Positions 51,818 through 60,892 of a DNA stretch of 64,000 nt are shown here, piece after piece. This DNA comes from Lentisphaeria bacterium (GTDB lineage Bacteria > Verrucomicrobiota > Lentisphaeria > Victivallales > Victivallaceae): the NCBI GenBank assembly GCA_017450705.1, contig JAFSTC010000102.1, positions 1 to 64,000 of the forward strand, given 5' to 3'. The notes under the pieces were generated by a model, which saw only the letters and a list, made by a program, of their open reading frames with translations, did no database searches and was not told the origin of the DNA. A program made the position numbers and the translations under genes. Within the stretch, counting starts at the first letter, position 1, and the number at the start of each line of letters is the position of its first letter.

Positions 51818-52036
51818 TGAAGTTCAGGCTTTCGTCCCGCAGGGCGGACAAATACAATCTTGCGCCGGATTTTTTGATTGCATTTTTCGTTTTCCCGCTG
51901 TACATTATTTCGATGTTGCGAATCGGCTTCCCGCCCGGGATAGGACATCTGCAAGTTGACCACGGGGCGCGGAGTGAATCAGGCGAAAAAGACCAAGTCC
52001 ATCTCGGGCGTCTTCAATGCGGAGCAGTCGGCGATC
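51818..52036. other. Leader region of the restriction-modification operon
   Basis: With the repeat before it, this makes about 314 bp between folB and the preferred hsdM start. It contains the promoter at 51878-51906 and alternative hsdM starts (TTG 51956, GTG 51974). No separate gene is seen. Confidence 0.5.
51878..51906 (+). promoter_or_regulatory. Promoter of the type I restriction-modification operon
   Basis: TTGCAT, 17 bp, TACATT; the only clear promoter before hsdM. Confidence 0.6.
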
Positions 52037-53779
52037 ATGACGGACAAAGAACTGAAAACTTTGAAGGACAATCTCTGGCACGCGGCGGACGTGCTGCGCA
52101 GCGGCGCGCATCTGGCGGCGAACAAATACGGGCAACCCATCCTCGGGCTGATCTTTCTGCGTTACGCGGATATCCTCTTCAAACAGCACAAGGAAGAGAT
52201 CGATGCGGAGTTTTCCCGGCTCGCCGGAACGCGCATGGAAAAATCGAAGAAGGAGATCGCCATAGCGAAATGCGGTTTCTTTCTGCCCGAGTGCGCTTAT
52301 TACGATTTCATCAACGACGCTCCCGACACTGCCGAAAAAGCCGAACTGGTGAAGAAAGCGATAGAGTCCATCGAACGGGAGAATCCCAAGGTGGAGGGCG
52401 TACTGCCCAAGGAGGTCTACGCCCAGCTCGTCCCGGAGGAGGAGCCGGAACTGTTGTCGAACATCGTGCGCATTTTCAAGGACATCCCGGAAAACTGCAC
52501 CGTGGACATCTTCGGCGAGATATACGAATACTTTCTCGGCAACTTCGCGCTGGCGGAGGGCAAGGACGGCGGCACCTTCTATACGCCCGCGACGGTGGTC
52601 CGCTACATGGTGGAGGTGCTGGATCCGGAGCCGGGGGACAAAAAGTTTCTCGACCCCGCCTGCGGCTCGGGCGGCATGTTCGTACAGGCGGCGCGGTATA
52701 TGCACCGGCACAACGCGGACAATGCCGATCAGATGAAGTTCCGCTGTTACGGCGTGGAAAAGGAACCGGACACGGTCAAACTCGCCAAGATGAATCTCCT
52801 GTTGAACAACGTGCGCGGCGAGATCTCCGAGGCAAATTCCTTTTACGCCGACCCGTATAATGCTTTCGGCGCGTTCGATTACGTCATGGCCAATCCGCCC
52901 TTCAACGTGGACGAAGTCTCCTTCGACCGGGTGAGCGGAGACGCGCGCTTCAACACCTACGGCGTGCCGCGCAATGCCACCAAGTCCGCGAAGAAAAGCT
53001 CCGACAAAAAGGAGACGGTTCCCAATGCCAACTATCTCTGGATCGGGCTGTTCGCCTCGGCATTGAACGGGAGCGGCAAAGCGGCGCTGGTGATGGCGAA
53101 CTCCGCTTCGGACGCGGGCAAGAGCGAATACGCGATCCGCAAGAAGCTGATCGAAGAGGGGATCATCAGCCAGATGGTGACCCTGCCCTCCAATATGTTT
53201 TCTTCGGTGACGCTGCCGGCGACCTTGTGGTTTTTCGATAAGCACAAGCCGCAGACGGAGAAAAAAGACGAGATCCTCTTCATCGACGCCCGCAACACCT
53301 TCACGCAGGTCGACCGCGCCCACCGCAAATTCAGCGACGAGCAGATCAAAAACCTCGGCGTCATCACCCGGCTGTACCACGGGGACACGGAGGCTTTCGC
53401 CGCATTGATGGCGGAATACAAAGCCGCGCTCGCCGCCGCACCGGAAACCGCAGAAGACAAGGAGACCAGGACAAAAGCCTACTGGCAGAGCCAGATCGAC
53501 TGGCTGACCGAGCGCTTCCCGGAGGGGAAATACCGCGATGTCATCGGTCTCTGCAAAGCGGCGAAGCTGGAGGGCGAAGACGGCATCGCCGATCAGGACT
53601 ACTCCCTCAATGCCGGGCGCTATGTCGGCGTGGTGATCGAGGACGACGGCATGACCGAGGAAGAATTCAAGACGACCATGCTCGGGCTTAACGCGGAGTT
53701 CGAGAACCTGAGCGACGAAGCGAAGAAGCTGGAAGCGCAGATCGCCGAGAACATAAAAGCGCTGTTCGGGGAGAAATAG
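52037..53779 (+). CDS. hsdM: Type I restriction-modification system, DNA methyltransferase subunit HsdM
   Basis: A 580-residue N6-adenine methyltransferase subunit. An N-terminal helical domain (KELKTLKDNLWHAADVLRSG) precedes the catalytic domain with motif I (LDPACGSGGMF, about residue 206) and motif IV (MANPPF, about 285). The C-terminal coiled region (NAEFENLSDEAKKLEAQI) contacts HsdS. It methylates host DNA and is part of the cleavage complex with HsdR and HsdS. ATG 52037 fits the family N-terminus but has a distant GGAG site; TTG 51956 or GTG 51974 would add 21-27 residues. The next gene begins 3 bp after its stop. Confidence 0.9.
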   Translation: MTDKELKTLKDNLWHAADVLRSGAHLAANKYGQPILGLIFLRYADILFKQHKEEIDAEFSRLAGTRMEKSKKEIAIAKCGFFLPECAYYDFINDAPDTAEKAELVKKAIESIERENPKVEGVLPKEVYAQLVPEEEPELLSNIVRIFKDIPENCTVDIFGEIYEYFLGNFALAEGKDGGTFYTPATVVRYMVEVLDPEPGDKKFLDPACGSGGMFVQAARYMHRHNADNADQMKFRCYGVEKEPDTVKLAKMNLLLNNVRGEISEANSFYADPYNAFGAFDYVMANPPFNVDEVSFDRVSGDARFNTYGVPRNATKSAKKSSDKKETVPNANYLWIGLFASALNGSGKAALVMANSASDAGKSEYAIRKKLIEEGIISQMVTLPSNMFSSVTLPATLWFFDKHKPQTEKKDEILFIDARNTFTQVDRAHRKFSDEQIKNLGVITRLYHGDTEAFAALMAEYKAALAAAPETAEDKETRTKAYWQSQIDWLTERFPEGKYRDVIGLCKAAKLEGEDGIADQDYSLNAGRYVGVVIEDDGMTEEEFKTTMLGLNAEFENLSDEAKKLEAQIAENIKALFGEK

Positions 53780-53782
53780 GCC

Positions 53783-54910
53783 ATGGCGGAAATACGGGAC
53801 ACGAAAAAAACGGACGCCCTGTTCGAGAAAATCGCCGAACTGATCGAACAGGCGCGCCGTCATGTCGTCAGCACGGTAAACGCGGCGGAGGTCTACACCA
53901 AGTACCGCATCGGGCAGTATATCGTGGAGGACGAGCAAAAGGGCAGGAACCGGGCGGAATACGGGCAGCGGGTGCTCAAGAATTTGTCGAAACGCCTCAC
54001 CGAGCGGTTCGGCGCCGGGTGGTCGCTGGAAACGCTGAAAAACTGCCGTTTCTTTTATGGTGTATACAGCAGCAGACCGATTGGGTCGACGGCGTTGACC
54101 CGATTGCCGGCGGCAAAAAAGGTCAACGGTGTTGACCCGATTCCGCCGACAAAGATGCGGACAAATGACAGATCCCCGGCCTTTTGTCTTTCGTGGAGCC
54201 ACTATCTGATCCTGATGCGCATCGAGAATCCCGACGAACGCAGTTTTTATGAAATCGAGTGCGCCCGGCAGCAGTGGAGCGTCCGGCAATTGCAGCGGCA
54301 AGTGGCCTCCAGTCTCTACGAACGTCTGGCGTTGAGCCGGAATAAGGCGGAAGTGATGCGGCTGGCAAACGAAGGACAGACCATGGAAAAGCCTGCCGAC
54401 ATTTTGAAGGATCCCGTCACGCTGGAGTTTCTGGGGCTGAAACCCGAAGCCGTCTATACCGAGACCCGGCTGGAGAACGCCATCATCAGCCGTCTGCAGA
54501 CCTTTCTTCTGGAAATGGGCAAAGGGTTCCTCTTCGAGGCGCGTCAGAAACGGTTCTCCTTCGACGAGGAAAACTTCTACGTCGACCTCGTGCTCTACAA
54601 CCGCATTCTGCAGTGCTATGTTCTGGTCGATCTCAAGGTCGACAAGCTGACGCATCAGGACTTGGGGCAGATGCAGATGTACGTCAACTATTTCGACCGG
54701 CACGTCAAGCTGGACTTCGAGAAGCCCACCATCGGCATCCTGCTCTGCAAGACGAAAAAAGACGCCCTGGTGGAATTGACATTGCCCGAAGACGCCAACA
54801 TCTACGCCTCCGCCTATGAACTCTGCCTGCCGGACAAGGCCCTGCTGCAGCGGAAACTCCGCGCGTGGATCGACGAGTTCGAGGGAAATAGCGAAACGCC
54901 GGAGGCATGA
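53783..54910 (+). CDS. DUF1016/YhcG family PD-(D/E)XK nuclease-like protein in the RM operon
   Basis: A 375-residue DUF1016 protein. N-terminal helical domain: EVYTKYRIGQYIVEDEQKGRNRAEYG, KNCRFFYGVY. Then LSWSHYLILMRI and QWSVRQLQRQVASSLYERLAL. The C-terminal nuclease-like domain has YVDLVLYNRILQCYVLVDLKV, where Asp and D-x-K form the PD-(D/E)XK pattern. YhcG proteins are often found beside type I RM genes and have been proposed to act on DNA. The linker at residues about 96-130 contains an in-frame palindromic repeat (54084-54137). The gene is sandwiched between hsdM (3-bp gap) and hsdS (4-bp overlap). Confidence 0.85.
   Translation: MAEIRDTKKTDALFEKIAELIEQARRHVVSTVNAAEVYTKYRIGQYIVEDEQKGRNRAEYGQRVLKNLSKRLTERFGAGWSLETLKNCRFFYGVYSSRPIGSTALTRLPAAKKVNGVDPIPPTKMRTNDRSPAFCLSWSHYLILMRIENPDERSFYEIECARQQWSVRQLQRQVASSLYERLALSRNKAEVMRLANEGQTMEKPADILKDPVTLEFLGLKPEAVYTETRLENAIISRLQTFLLEMGKGFLFEARQKRFSFDEENFYVDLVLYNRILQCYVLVDLKVDKLTHQDLGQMQMYVNYFDRHVKLDFEKPTIGILLCKTKKDALVELTLPEDANIYASAYELCLPDKALLQRKLRAWIDEFEGNSETPEA
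54084..54137. repeat. Two 17-bp palindromes 37 bp apart inside the DUF1016 gene
   Basis: GGTCGACGGCGTTGACC at 54084 and GGTCAACGGTGTTGACC at 54121, each followed by CGATT and a CCG-rich stretch. They fall in the linker between the two protein domains and keep the frame open, as a small inserted element would. Confidence 0.6.
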
Positions 54911-55998
54911 GCGTGATAGCCTATCTGGAACAGAGATTAGGAAATATTTGCAAGCGCTTTTCAAGTGGGAAGGGCATCTCCGCGAATAGCATCTTCGAGG
55001 CGGGGGATTATCCGGTTCTCGGTGGAAACGGGTTGCGGGGTTTTACCGACACATATAACTTTGATGGTGAGTGTGCTGTAATCGGACGCCAAGGCGCCTA
55101 TTGCGGCAACGTTCAGTTCTTTGCCGGTAAAGGGTATATGACAGAACATGCCATTGTCGCCCAGCCAGATGATAGGAACAATGCTAAATATCTAACGTAC
55201 AAACTGGCAGGTTTGCAACTAGGACGTTTTTCCGGGCAAGCGGCTCAACCAGGTCTCTCTGTCACAAAACTTGCTCGGTTGCGCATTGAAATGCCATCTA
55301 AAGAGTATCAGGACAGAGTTGCCTCCATCCTCTCCACCTACGACGACTTAATCGAGATCAATAACCGGCGGATCAAGGCGCTGGAGCAGATGGCGGAAAA
55401 TCTCTACAAGGAGTGGTTCGTCCGTTTCCGCTACCCCGGCCACGAAACCGCCGAGTTCGAAGACGGGATACCGAAGGGGTGGGAGATTGTAAAGGTCAAA
55501 GAAATCGTTAAACGATTGCCATTCGGTACACTTTATAAAACAGAGGATACAGAAAAAGATGGCAGGGTAATCGTGATCGATCAATCTCAATCTGATTATG
55601 TTGGATTTCATAATAATGAGCCTTCTCACTTTGCAACGCCTTTAAGCCCGATTGCTCTGTTCGGCGATCATTCCTGTAAACAACAACTGATGATAACGCC
55701 ATTTTCATTATCGGAAAATATTATTCCATTTAAGGGGAAGACGGGCGTTAATACCGTTTATCTGTATTATTTGACGTATGGACTAATAGAAACAACCGAA
55801 TATAAGCGTCATTGGACTGAATTTATCGCAAAAAAGGTTCTTCTTGCCCCTGTGGAACTTCAAGAATGCTTTGCAGATAAAGTCACGAAGATCTGCGAAG
55901 CTCTCCAAAGGAGAAAAGAACAAAACAGAAATCTCATCAAACAACGCGACCTGCTGCTCCCGCGCCTGATGAGCGGAAAACTGGAGGTTCATACATGA
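54907..55998 (+). CDS. hsdS: Type I restriction-modification system, specificity subunit HsdS
   Basis: A 363-residue specificity subunit with two target-recognition domains, each followed by a conserved helix. The first region (residues 1 to about 130) includes SSGKGISANSIFEAGDYPVLGG and TEHAIVAQP. The central helix is STYDDLIEINNRRIKALEQM (about 139-158) and EWFVRFRYPG. The second domain covers about 180-320, and the closing helix is RRKEQNRNLIKQRDLLLPRL. The two recognition domains set a bipartite DNA target. Base composition drops to AT-rich in both recognition domains while the helices keep the operon's GC-rich style, a sign of exchange of recognition modules. The start overlaps the DUF1016 stop (ATGA). 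Confidence 0.9.
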   Translation: MSVIAYLEQRLGNICKRFSSGKGISANSIFEAGDYPVLGGNGLRGFTDTYNFDGECAVIGRQGAYCGNVQFFAGKGYMTEHAIVAQPDDRNNAKYLTYKLAGLQLGRFSGQAAQPGLSVTKLARLRIEMPSKEYQDRVASILSTYDDLIEINNRRIKALEQMAENLYKEWFVRFRYPGHETAEFEDGIPKGWEIVKVKEIVKRLPFGTLYKTEDTEKDGRVIVIDQSQSDYVGFHNNEPSHFATPLSPIALFGDHSCKQQLMITPFSLSENIIPFKGKTGVNTVYLYYLTYGLIETTEYKRHWTEFIAKKVLLAPVELQECFADKVTKICEALQRRKEQNRNLIKQRDLLLPRLMSGKLEVHT

Positions 55999-56837
55999 GA
56001 CGCATTCCGTTTTCACAAGTTCTAAAAAATTCCAAGGTAGATATTAACAGGGAGTACAAACGTCTCTATAAACTTTTTTACTCTCGACAAATTGTGTCTG
56101 ATTGCGAGGAGGGTGTGAACTTGTCTAACCTCTGTGCAGACTGTTTTATGAAATTACCCTTCCGTGGGACCTGCGTTTCTATAAATGATTTTAACGATTT
56201 TCATGGATATCGATTCAGAGAAAGTCCGAAAGATTTCAACATTGATTATTTGATTTCCTTCTGCGAATATTCATACAATCTCGTCAATTGCAGTGGGGGA
56301 ATCAGTCGTTATTCGCTCACACCTGATATGCATCAGGTAATTCTGTTTTATCTCACCCAAGTAAAGAAGGTTATCGAAACAGTTGGATATATGGAGAATA
56401 TACAAAATGGGATCACTGACTTCGTCCCGAAGGATCAATGTGCTATTTCTGTGGCTGAAATCGTTGACCCGAGTTTGTCGTATAAAGTAATTGAATACCA
56501 CCACCACTCAATGAAAGGCGATTGGGTGCGAAAAAGGGAGACCTTAGTCGCTTTGGTAGATAAACTGGAACCCCAACGCGCCAAGTTGAGGCAAATCAAC
56601 ACTTCACTGGAGACAGATCTTTTCTTCCTTTTCAACAACGTAAATTTGCGACATAACAATGCTGATTCCAACGGAAAAAACTATAAGTTGTTTGTTGCAA
56701 AAATGGCTGAGTCCGAAATTGAGAAATGGTATGATGACACCTATCAAATGTGCCTGCTTGCGTTTCTCGAGCTGGAACATTTGGATCGGAAACCACGTAT
56801 AGGCCAGCTAAAAACAGACATCCAAAATAACGCATGA
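55995..56837 (+). CDS. Unknown protein encoded between hsdS and hsdR (orfA)
   Basis: A 280-residue protein I do not recognise. It is AT-rich compared with hsdM, the DUF1016 gene and hsdR. The start overlaps the hsdS stop (ATGA), so it is translated with the RM operon. It has no signal or membrane segment and is predicted mostly helical in its second half. NVNLRHNNADSNGKNY (about residues 214-229) has an Arg-His pair in a helical setting that faintly recalls HEPN-type RNases, but the R-x4-6-H spacing is not met. Cys residues at the N-terminus (LSNLCADCF) are another visible feature. Likely an accessory defence gene carried in the RM operon; its function is open. Confidence 0.6.
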   Translation: MRRIPFSQVLKNSKVDINREYKRLYKLFYSRQIVSDCEEGVNLSNLCADCFMKLPFRGTCVSINDFNDFHGYRFRESPKDFNIDYLISFCEYSYNLVNCSGGISRYSLTPDMHQVILFYLTQVKKVIETVGYMENIQNGITDFVPKDQCAISVAEIVDPSLSYKVIEYHHHSMKGDWVRKRETLVALVDKLEPQRAKLRQINTSLETDLFFLFNNVNLRHNNADSNGKNYKLFVAKMAESEIEKWYDDTYQMCLLAFLELEHLDRKPRIGQLKTDIQNNA

Positions 56838-56872
56838 TAGGGCTGTGACCTGATGCGCGGGAGACTGAAAAT

Positions 56873-57661
56873 ATGATTATGCTTTGGGAAGACAAAGAGG
56901 CAAATCTTATTGAATCTTTCCGACAGCACACCCTTGGGGACTATCGACCGGTGCTCAGGTTACCCGACATTAAAGAAACCCGGACGATGATGACGTCAAT
57001 CGTCGATGACGAGATATGGAAAAACGAGTGGGTGGATAGCTCGTCCAAGAACGATCCTCCTCCCGACTTCTACAGCGAAAGTCAAAAGCTGATGATGGAA
57101 GCCATGCGAATTGATGACCATGCCTTTGAACAAGACGGACGCATCAAAAACCCCACAAATCAAAGGGCACGTATGAAAGGCAAGGAATTGAGAGACGCCC
57201 TTCATCTCCATCCAGGCACCCCGCTATTTGTTAACGCTCCGACCGGGTTGCCATCTTCAGAAGATCACAATTATCGTTATTACAAATCTAATTTCACGAG
57301 GGTAATCAAAAATCACATAGAAAAAATTCCCGCATATAAATCAAACCATCCTGACTGTAAACTGATATTCTTTGTTTTCGACGAATCATCCATGTATTTA
57401 AAAACTGATACGCCAAATCAGACGATCAAGAGGGGAGAACAAATTTGTGGAGTACCTCATTGTTGGTATCTTGACAAGGCATTTATAGGTGTTTTCGTGA
57501 ATTCCGGAATTGATTATCTAATTTGGATTACCCCGTATAAACACGTAGAGACTCTGGGACGGCCGATAAAATTACCATTGGCCTGTGTATTCGATTGTAA
57601 TCAAGTGAATAGAGAGGCAGTTGATTATCCCGAGGATTATATGGTGAGCGCAGAAGAATAA
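56873..57661 (+). CDS. Unknown protein encoded between hsdS and hsdR (orfB)
   Basis: A 262-residue AT-rich protein without a family I can name. It lies 35 bp after orfA and 12 bp before hsdR. The start ATG 56873 has GGGAG upstream. Visible features: DFYSESQKLMMEAMRIDDHA (about residues 64-83) and IFFVFDESSMYL (about 164-175), which could be acidic metal sites of a nuclease-type core, and several conserved-looking aromatic pairs (HCWYLDKAF, DYLIWITPYKH). A PD-(D/E)XK-like fold is possible but no clear E-x-K is seen. No membrane segment. It is probably co-expressed with orfA as one module. Confidence 0.6.
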   Translation: MIMLWEDKEANLIESFRQHTLGDYRPVLRLPDIKETRTMMTSIVDDEIWKNEWVDSSSKNDPPPDFYSESQKLMMEAMRIDDHAFEQDGRIKNPTNQRARMKGKELRDALHLHPGTPLFVNAPTGLPSSEDHNYRYYKSNFTRVIKNHIEKIPAYKSNHPDCKLIFFVFDESSMYLKTDTPNQTIKRGEQICGVPHCWYLDKAFIGVFVNSGIDYLIWITPYKHVETLGRPIKLPLACVFDCNQVNREAVDYPEDYMVSAEE

Positions 57662-57673
57662 GGAGATTGCAAA

Positions 57674-60600
57674 ATGCGCAACTTCATCTCCGAAGACGAT
57701 ATCGAACAGGCGATCCTGCAGAAGTTGGAGGCGGAGCCCTTCCGGTACGATATTCTGCGCGGCGATCCTTCGCCGGACAAGCGGGAGGCGCTGCCGGACG
57801 GCACCGGGCGGGAGAACAAGAAGCAATGCGTGCTCCCGCAGGTGCTGCAGGCGGCGTTGGCACGGCTGAATCCCGGCATCCCGCCCGAAAAGCTGGAGGA
57901 GATCGCACGGGAACTCTGCCGGGATTTTTCCGCCTCGGATATGACTGCCGTCAACTATCGGTACTACAATCTGATCCGCAACGGCATACAGATCAAACTC
58001 CGCCGCAACGGGAAAGAGGATTTCGATTTTGTGAAGCTGGTCGACTACGAGCATCCGGAAAACAACACCTTCACCGCCGTTTCGCAGATGTGGGTCCGGG
58101 GGCGGGTCTACTGGCGGCGGCCGGACATACTCCTTTTCGTCAACGGGCTGCCGATGGTCTTCATCGAACTCAAAAACAGCATCGTCAAGGTCGAAGAAGC
58201 CTACAACGACAACTTGCAGAACTACAAAAAGGACATTCCCAATCTCTTTGCCTTCAATCAGATCTGCGTGCTCTCAAACGGGCTCGAAACGCGGCTCGGC
58301 GCCTTCAACGCCCCCTACAGCCATTTCTTCGAGTGGCTGAAGGTGGATTCCGAAAAGGAGCGCCCGGACCGCAAAGCCATCCACAGTGCCGCCACCGTGG
58401 GCGAGAGTTCCGTAAAGTACTTCATCGACGGTCTGCTGCGGAAAGAACGGCTCATCGACTACATCGAAAACTTCATCATGTTCCGCAGTCAGAAGAACAA
58501 GATCATCGCCAAGAACCACCAGTATTTCGGCGTGAACAACCTGATGGAGTCGGTGAGGAACCGGGCGGCGCTCCGTGGCAAGCTGGGCGTTTTCTGGCAC
58601 ACGCAGGGCTCGGGCAAGTCCTTTTCCATGGTCTTTTTCGCCCGCAAGGTGCGGCGGAAGATCCCCGGCAATTTCACCTTCCTCATCGTCACGGACCGCG
58701 AGGATCTCGACGGCCAGATCCACAAGAACTTCGTCAAAACCGAGGTCATCGGGCAAAAAGAAGAGTGTCAGCCGAAGAACGGGGAAAAGCTCAGGGAGTA
58801 CCTGCAGACCAGCAAACCCTTCATCTTCACCTTGATCCACAAGTTCCGCTACGACAAGGGCAAGAAATACCCGGTGCTTTCCATGCGTGACGACATTCTC
58901 GTGCTGGTGGACGAGGCGCACAGGACTCAGTACAAGGACTTGGCGGAAAATATGCGCACCGCGCTGCCCAATGCCAACTACATCGCCTTTACGGGCACCC
59001 CGCTGCTGGGCAGCAAGCGCCTCACGAATCAGTGGTTCGGGAACTACGTCTCGGAATACAACTTCGCGCAGTCGATCGAGGACGGCTCCACCGTGCCGCT
59101 TTTCTACTCCCGCCGCGTGCCAGAGGTGGGGCTCGAAAACGACTTCCTCGACGACGACGTGATGGACATCATCGAGGACGCGCAGCTGAACCTGGACGAG
59201 ACCCGACTGCTGGAAAATTCGGCATCGCGGATACTGGAAGTCATCAAAAGAGAAGACCGCATCGACAAGATCGCGCAGGATATCGCGCACCACTTCCCGC
59301 GCCGCGGTTTCCTCGGCAAGGGCATGGTCGTCTCCGTCGACAAGTACACGACGGTCAAGATGTTCGACAAGGTCCAGCACTACTGGTCGCTCGAGAAGCA
59401 GAAGATCATGGCCGAACGCAACGCCGCGGAGAACGGGGAAAAGCGCAGCGAACTGACGCGGATCCTGAATTACATGAACCGCGTGGAAATGGCGGTGATC
59501 GTCTCCGAGGAGGAGGACGAAGACGAGAAGTTCGAGAAACAGGGACTGAATATTTCCCTCCACCGGCAGAAGATGAACGCCGTCACTCCGGAGGGCGCGG
59601 ATATCGAGGACCGCTTCAAGGATCCCGACGATCCGCTCCAGCTCGTTTTCGTCTGCGCCATGTGGCTGACCGGTTTCGACGTGGAAAACCTCTCCACGCT
59701 TTATCTCGACAAACCCATGAAGGGACACACCCTGATGCAGGCCATCGCCCGTGCCAACCGCGTCTATTCGGGCAAGCCCTGCGGGATCATCGTCGACTAC
59801 GTCAACGTCTTCAAATATATGCAGAAGGCCCTGACGGAATATGCCGCGGGCGACGACGGCACGGACTTCCCGGCCAAAAACATCGATCAGTTGATCGTGC
59901 TGATCGACAGCGCGGTGAACGAAGCGGATGAATTCCTGCTGGGGCTCGGCGTCGACATCGGCGAAATCGTGGAGAGCGGTTCGACCTTCGACCGGCTCGA
60001 TCTGCTGCGGGAGGCTTACGACGTCATCCTCGCGAATGATGAAAACAAAGACAGGTTCCGGGTGATCCTGAATACGCTGATGAACCTCTACGAAGCCTCC
60101 CGACCGGAGATTTTCGAAAAGAACTGGCACAACGAAAAGTTTTCGCCTCTGGCATATCTCTATGGCCTGTTCTGCCACACCATCAACGACGAAAAAGTCG
60201 AGCAGGCAAGGCGCCGCCTGGCTCAGGTGCTGGATACAAGCGTTTCGTCACAGCAGGCACAGGACAACGACGACGGTTTCGTGATCCATCAGGGCCAGGT
60301 GATCGACCTTTCGAAGATCGATGTGGAACAGCTGAAAAAGGAGATCAGAACCGCGCAGTACAAGGCCATCGAGATCGACGACCTGAAGGAATTCATCGAA
60401 AAGGCGCTTCTGCAGATGCTGAACCGCAACTGCACCCGCCAGAAGTTCTCTCAGCGGTTCCGCGGCATCATCGACCGCTACAACGCCGGCGGCTCGGAGA
60501 ACGAGGACTACTACGAACAGCTCCTGAAACTCATCGAAGATTTGAAGGCGGAGGAGAAACGCCCCGAGGCTGAGGGGCTCACCGAAGAGGAACTGGAGAT

Positions 60601-60892
60601 CTTCGACATGCTGATCGCCGGGAAGAAACTGACGAAAGCCGAGGAACAGATGGTCAAGTTATCGGCAAAAAATCTGTTTCGGAAACTCTCCGAGAACAAA
60701 GCTGAACTGATGGTCGTGGACTGGTACCGCGACGAACAGCCCCGCGCGAAAGTGAAATCGGCGATAGAAGAATCGCTGAACGCCGATCTGCCGATGTCAT
60801 ACGACAAGGAGACGTTTGCCGCAAAAACCGACCTTCTGCTGGTACACTTGATCGATATGGCCGTTCAGGGCTACGGCTGGGTGGTGGCGTAA
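57674..60892 (+). CDS. hsdR: Type I restriction-modification system, restriction subunit HsdR
   Basis: A 1072-residue restriction and translocase subunit. The N-terminal PD-(D/E)XK nuclease has [11 protein letters not shown] and MVFIELKNS (about residues 150-170). The SF2 motor has Walker [12 protein letters not shown] (about 309-319), DEAH-type box VDEAHRTQ (about 413), TGTPLLG (motif III) and [12 protein letters not shown] (motif VI). The C-terminal helical region binds the methyltransferase core. It translocates DNA with ATP and cuts when two complexes collide. All motifs are intact and length is normal. It follows orfB by 12 bp and closes the operon, converging on the DUF4838 gene. Confidence 0.92.

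Follow-up and report, generated by a model that had tools for sequence, protein, structure and literature searches.

In the PrrI type I restriction-modification (R-M) operon, the second-line effector PrrC is nested within hsdMSR (PMC3710099, PMC2610378). HEPN proteins, PrrC included, occur in R-M operons, and R-M loci that combine a HEPN gene with a Doc/Fic gene have also been described (PMC3710099). Here we analyse a 64,000-nucleotide stretch of contig JAFSTC010000102.1 from a Lentisphaeria bacterium (assembly GCA_017450705.1), referred to as the window, in which two genes of unnamed families, orfA and orfB, lie between hsdS and hsdR. Like prrC, orfA and orfB are nested inside a type I R-M operon. 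PrrC, however, is an ABC-ATPase fused to a HEPN RNase, and neither OrfA nor OrfB has an ABC-ATPase match, which sets both apart from the PrrC family. The literature on nested type I R-M genes yielded no paper on either family.

Operon organisation and composition

The genes hsdM, DUF1016 (YhcG), hsdS, orfA, orfB and hsdR form one co-oriented operon with 4 bp overlaps or gaps of at most 35 bp (Table 1). This is a type I R-M system, with genes for HsdM, HsdS and HsdR together and Pfam and PADLOC matches far over cut-off. The start of orfA overlaps the end of hsdS by 4 bp (ATGA) and has GGAGG upstream, orfB starts 35 bp past orfA with GGAG ahead, and hsdR starts 12 bp past orfB with AAGGAG ahead; the coordinates thus bear out the spacing reported in the initial annotation. 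Judged by their sequences, both orfA and orfB are genuine genes and neither is a chance open reading frame, because homologues in other phyla share many invariant residues.

Table 1. Genes and motifs of the composite type I restriction operon, in window coordinates
Feature	Position	Strand	Basis
hsdM, type I DNA methyltransferase	51956..53779	+	Pfam HsdM_N, N6_Mtase; PADLOC MTase_I E 7e-180
DUF1016/YhcG protein, PD-(D/E)XK domain; PADLOC candidate PDC-S02	53783..54910	+	YhcG_C E 3e-50; PDC-S02 E 2e-138
hsdS, specificity subunit, low GC	54907..55998	+	Methylase_S E 7e-21; composition
orfA, 280 aa; putative helical C-terminal domain with PDC-S32-type relatives	55995..56837	+	relatives, profile links
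RHNN motif of orfA, residues 219-222	56649..56660	+	R219, H220 invariant in 11/11 aligned relatives
orfB, 262 aa; candidate new family, PD-(D/E)XK-like motif	56873..57661	+	nine relatives; model, motif
orfB residues 64-79, PDFYSESQKLMMEAMR, candidate PD...(D/E)XM site	57062..57109	+	conservation; DpnII-MboI PD...DVK alignment
hsdR, type I restriction subunit	57674..60892	+	HSDR_N, SWI2_SNF2, T1RH-like_C; PADLOC REase_I E 2e-178

The G+C content is 0.400 in orfA, 0.427 in orfB and 0.460 in hsdS, compared with 0.582 in hsdM, 0.566 in the DUF1016 gene, 0.568 in hsdR and 0.602 across the window. The corresponding third-position values (GC3) are 0.44, 0.445 and 0.48 against 0.81, 0.76 and 0.815. 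The low-GC block begins at or within hsdS and stops exactly at hsdR. A low G+C content had been noted for orfA and orfB, which is correct, but the property is not limited to these two genes. Since hsdS is low as well, its composition together with that of orfA and orfB makes the three look like one exchanged cassette between hsdM-DUF1016 and hsdR. Within hsdS itself the G+C content steps from 0.496 over the first 510 bp to 0.428 over the remainder, a pattern that an exchange of target-recognition segments would produce.

Family searches

Neither OrfA nor OrfB produced a match reaching the curated Pfam or NCBIfam cut-offs, nor a convincing match, or any at cut-off, in PHROGs or PADLOC. Sequence searches of the PDB, whether with a single protein or with a profile as query, produced no credible hit for either, and Foldseek returned no significant match for either model, which does not in itself point to new folds; one of the fold predictions used input without the phage row. 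In tblastn searches close relatives of both were absent from plasmids, and among phages the sole match was to phiS11, for orfB, with none for orfA. Clear homology to a housekeeping family was found for neither protein. That they fit no nameable family holds at curated cut-offs but is too strict beyond them, as profile comparison connects OrfA with PDC-S32-type proteins and OrfB has PD-(D/E)XK-type features.

OrfA and its relatives

A profile built from only five close members of the OrfA family also detects remoter homologues (E 5e-8 to 2e-6), whose genes adjoin an MNT-HEPN-like gene in L023, a HepT-type pair in L030, SIR2 and PIN-like genes in L031 and the gene of an Abi_C protein in L032. 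PDC-S32 is matched by 5 of the 11 members of the joint alignment (best E 5.6e-15), and one member has a match to AbiJ_NTD4 that falls below the cut-off. While these relatives match the PDC-S32 model of PADLOC, OrfA itself does not at E up to 1, and its N-terminal half differs. On these sequence relationships OrfA is probably a distant cousin of abortive infection proteins.

The C-terminal domain of OrfA is predicted to be helical, with pLDDT 85-94 from residue 181, and contains the invariant R-H pair together with an invariant E upstream. A search for the HEPN Rx4-6H motif in OrfA found R219 invariant with no H 4-6 residues on, the invariant H lying directly after the R. The model aligns with Csx1 HEPN at Z 5.7 but with an rmsd of 7.5, amid unrelated bundles. 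As modelled, the domain resembles HEPN in outline, with the Rx4-6H histidine missing. A match of OrfA to FolE (E 0.084) is at chance level and was discarded. OrfA also has a weak match to the PADLOC Specificity_I model (residues 126-242, E 0.0041), which might indicate that it is no independent protein but derives from the specificity subunit as a remnant, or serves it as an accessory. This match spans a helical region only, and an HsdS-derived origin was rejected, as relatives occur without any hsdS (L006, L016, L017 and L022); we consider such an origin very improbable.

The genome encodes a paralogue of OrfA (34% identity over 179 residues) on a different contig. Its gene is flanked by those of a Bro-N/Fic protein and of DUF4391, and the operon also encodes an SNF2-type helicase and an N6/N4 methylase. 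This is a second composite restriction-type operon in the genome. In full, the region (L006, 3033-13038, from contig C43) encodes a PLD/SNF2 helicase, the Bro-N/Fic protein, the OrfA paralogue, DUF4391, two unnamed proteins and the N6/N4 methylase. The order of helicase, Bro-N/Fic, orfA paralogue, DUF4391 and Mod-type methylase recalls the R-M loci that carry HEPN and Doc/Fic genes, with the difference that a member of the putative-HEPN OrfA family fills the HEPN position. Elsewhere, relatives of orfA take an accessory position after the tail genes of prophage-like contigs (L016, L017), and a solitary copy occurs in a further genome from the phylum. Some relatives are found in prophages or near sugar-transfer genes, not defence genes.

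OrfB and its relatives

Nine relatives of OrfB were found; identities are 34-42%, and 35 columns of the alignment are invariant. They comprise one gene of phage phiS11, one on a viral contig and seven on genome contigs from Bacillota and Gastranaerophilales. E9, D65, an acidic residue (D/E) at position 76 and M78 are kept in all ten proteins. The PD and (D/E) acidic residues of a PD-(D/E)XK site are therefore present, aligned to the DpnII-MboI site, but the catalytic lysine two residues past (D/E) is absent and replaced by methionine in 10/10 proteins. Lysine variants and lysine migration are known in the PD-(D/E)XK superfamily (PMC1189080). Given methionine at the lysine position, we infer that a basic residue that has migrated serves in its place in OrfB, or else that the protein is non-cutting.

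The match of OrfB to the DpnII-MboI nuclease domain (PF18742) is sub-threshold, with E 0.006 and 16.6 bits against a gathering score of 27, and sub-threshold matches to it occur in 4/9 family members. In a profile alignment PDF...MMEAMR of OrfB falls on VPDF...LVVDVK from a DpnII-MboI protein. This protein ranks top among the unrelated proteins tested against the OrfB profile, at a probability of just 5%; the DpnII-MboI relatives found were too few for a proper profile. OrfB is thus like this domain in its aligned PDF...(D/E)V motif and unlike it in scoring below the gathering threshold and in carrying methionine in place of the catalytic lysine. Both DpnII-MboI and HamA are PD-(D/E)XK folds. 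HamA (PF08878) was rejected for OrfB, with one weak sub-threshold match by a member, and the HamA proteins included when profiles were compared did not rank near the top. The best OrfB model is fair (pLDDT 80, pTM 0.79) and the other four are poor; its structural matches to Vsr, NotI, Hjc and influenza PA endonuclease are weak (Z 2.4-4.3). OrfB is probably a divergent PD-(D/E)XK-fold protein of a new nuclease-like family.

Defence genes lie near 9/9 relatives of OrfB, a raw count for relatives that were not picked for defence. Restriction genes are directly abutted by two of them: one lies 9 bp upstream of an hsdR whose product is just 29% identical to that of the window (L007), and another overlaps a PvuRts1I-like gene by 4 bp (L005). 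Type II restriction enzymes and methylases are nearby in L008, L010 and L011, a D12 methylase and GmrSD in L009, and a Mrr-type gene at 1.2 kb in L012. In phiS11 the relative occupies an accessory-gene position after the lysis genes, with NgoFVII-type R-M genes within ~3.2 kb. In L013 (4776-6768) an orfB relative lies 5 bp behind a Pycsar-type cyclase and membrane effector and may be a third Pycsar-linked gene.

OrfA and OrfB could instead be modulators of phage origin, which would dampen restriction in an anti-restriction or self-protection role, with OrfB as a non-cutting PD-(D/E)XK-fold binder of DNA or enzyme. Loss of the lysine in all ten OrfB proteins would suit this role, as would the phage and prophage accessory positions of orfB in phiS11 and of orfA in L016 and L017. 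We nevertheless regard it as improbable, since many further conserved D, H and E residues of OrfB resemble an active site and a place behind Pycsar genes in L013 is ill-suited to anti-restriction.

The position upstream of hsdR

Neither orfA nor orfB was found in the examined flanks of 29 hsdR relatives in the phylum. Inspection of translations placed a ribbon-helix-helix/RelE-like toxin-antitoxin pair exactly between hsdS and hsdR in L050 (900-1380), a RelA/SpoT-like protein whose gene overlaps the hsdR start by 4 bp in L049 (515-1393), and a Bro-N/Fic-like protein upstream of hsdR in L053. DUF1016 directly precedes hsdR in L041, while in the window the DUF1016/YhcG gene lies between hsdM and hsdS. 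In L059 and L060 hsdS is directly upstream of hsdR. By the sequences compared, the contents of the place before hsdR vary, and toxin-like genes accumulate there.

Among the loci compared, orfA and orfB occur together only in the window. A conserved orfA-orfB pair was therefore rejected, and the two are separate accessories and not a conserved module. They are probably accessory defence genes acquired independently. The initial annotation proposed a novel defence module; its unnamed defence genes within a type I R-M operon are retained, whereas a single module is not supported, as none of the other loci compared contains both genes. The proposed link to defence was upheld by all nine orfB relatives being near restriction or defence genes and by the defence loci among orfA relatives, and the pair is not confined to loci outside defence.

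Discussion

Our results support a model of a composite type I restriction operon in which orfA and orfB, acquired independently, encode second-line effectors expressed in step with the restriction enzyme. We give this reading a probability of about one half. The two genes occupy a variable position, flanked by hsdS and hsdR, which in relatives holds toxin-like genes or nothing. In this model OrfA is a protein of the abortive-infection type that would act on RNA or translation and whose helical C-terminal domain would be HEPN-like, and OrfB would be a PD-(D/E)XK-like protein binding or cutting DNA once restriction has engaged or failed. The motifs, homologues, defence contexts and operon anatomy are observed; the folds and nucleic-acid targets, as well as the coupling to HsdR and any toxicity, we infer. 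A second-line role is the likeliest function because of the precedent set by PrrC and by R-M-linked HEPN and Doc genes (PMC3710099). The effector reading is favoured by the translational packing with hsdS and hsdR, the defence contexts, the orfA paralogue operon with its Fic gene, the reach of the orfA profile to PDC-S32-type proteins beside HepT, SIR2 and Abi_C genes, and the contents of the slot. Against it stand the missing catalytic lysine of OrfB, the missing Rx4-6H histidine of OrfA, the orfA relatives found in prophages or near sugar-transfer genes, and the weak fold matches.

Alternatively, orfA and orfB may be stand-alone defence genes that hitch-hike in defence islands and share the operon promoter with no functional tie to HsdR. 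The wide variation in orfB neighbours, which include type I, II and IV systems and Pycsar, is consistent with this, as are the separate occurrence of orfA and orfB elsewhere and the distance of 1-4 kb between the L008, L010 and L012 copies and the nearest R-M gene. However, the genes in the window, L005, L007 and L013 lie within ~12 bp of a defence gene or overlap it, which suggests co-translation with that gene, and we judge hitch-hiking rather unlikely. Returning to the second-line effector model, relatives of orfA and orfB are found mostly beside anti-virus genes, so the operon probably carries back-up defences.

The nesting of accessory genes in restriction operons is a known bacterial route to a second defence line, as for PrrC. 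With OrfA, restriction operons gain members of an uncharacterised candidate family for abortive infection, and this genome has two such cases. The family of OrfB is unnamed and its active-site motif unusual; because it recurs next to several defence systems of different kinds, it is a concrete candidate for a partner that they share. More tentatively, and with considerable doubt, OrfB may found a new family of PD-(D/E)XM proteins that lack the lysine and plug into unrelated defence systems as a general effector or partner. If so, the OrfB family would serve type I, II and IV restriction as well as Pycsar, often from directly beside the enzyme or effector gene.
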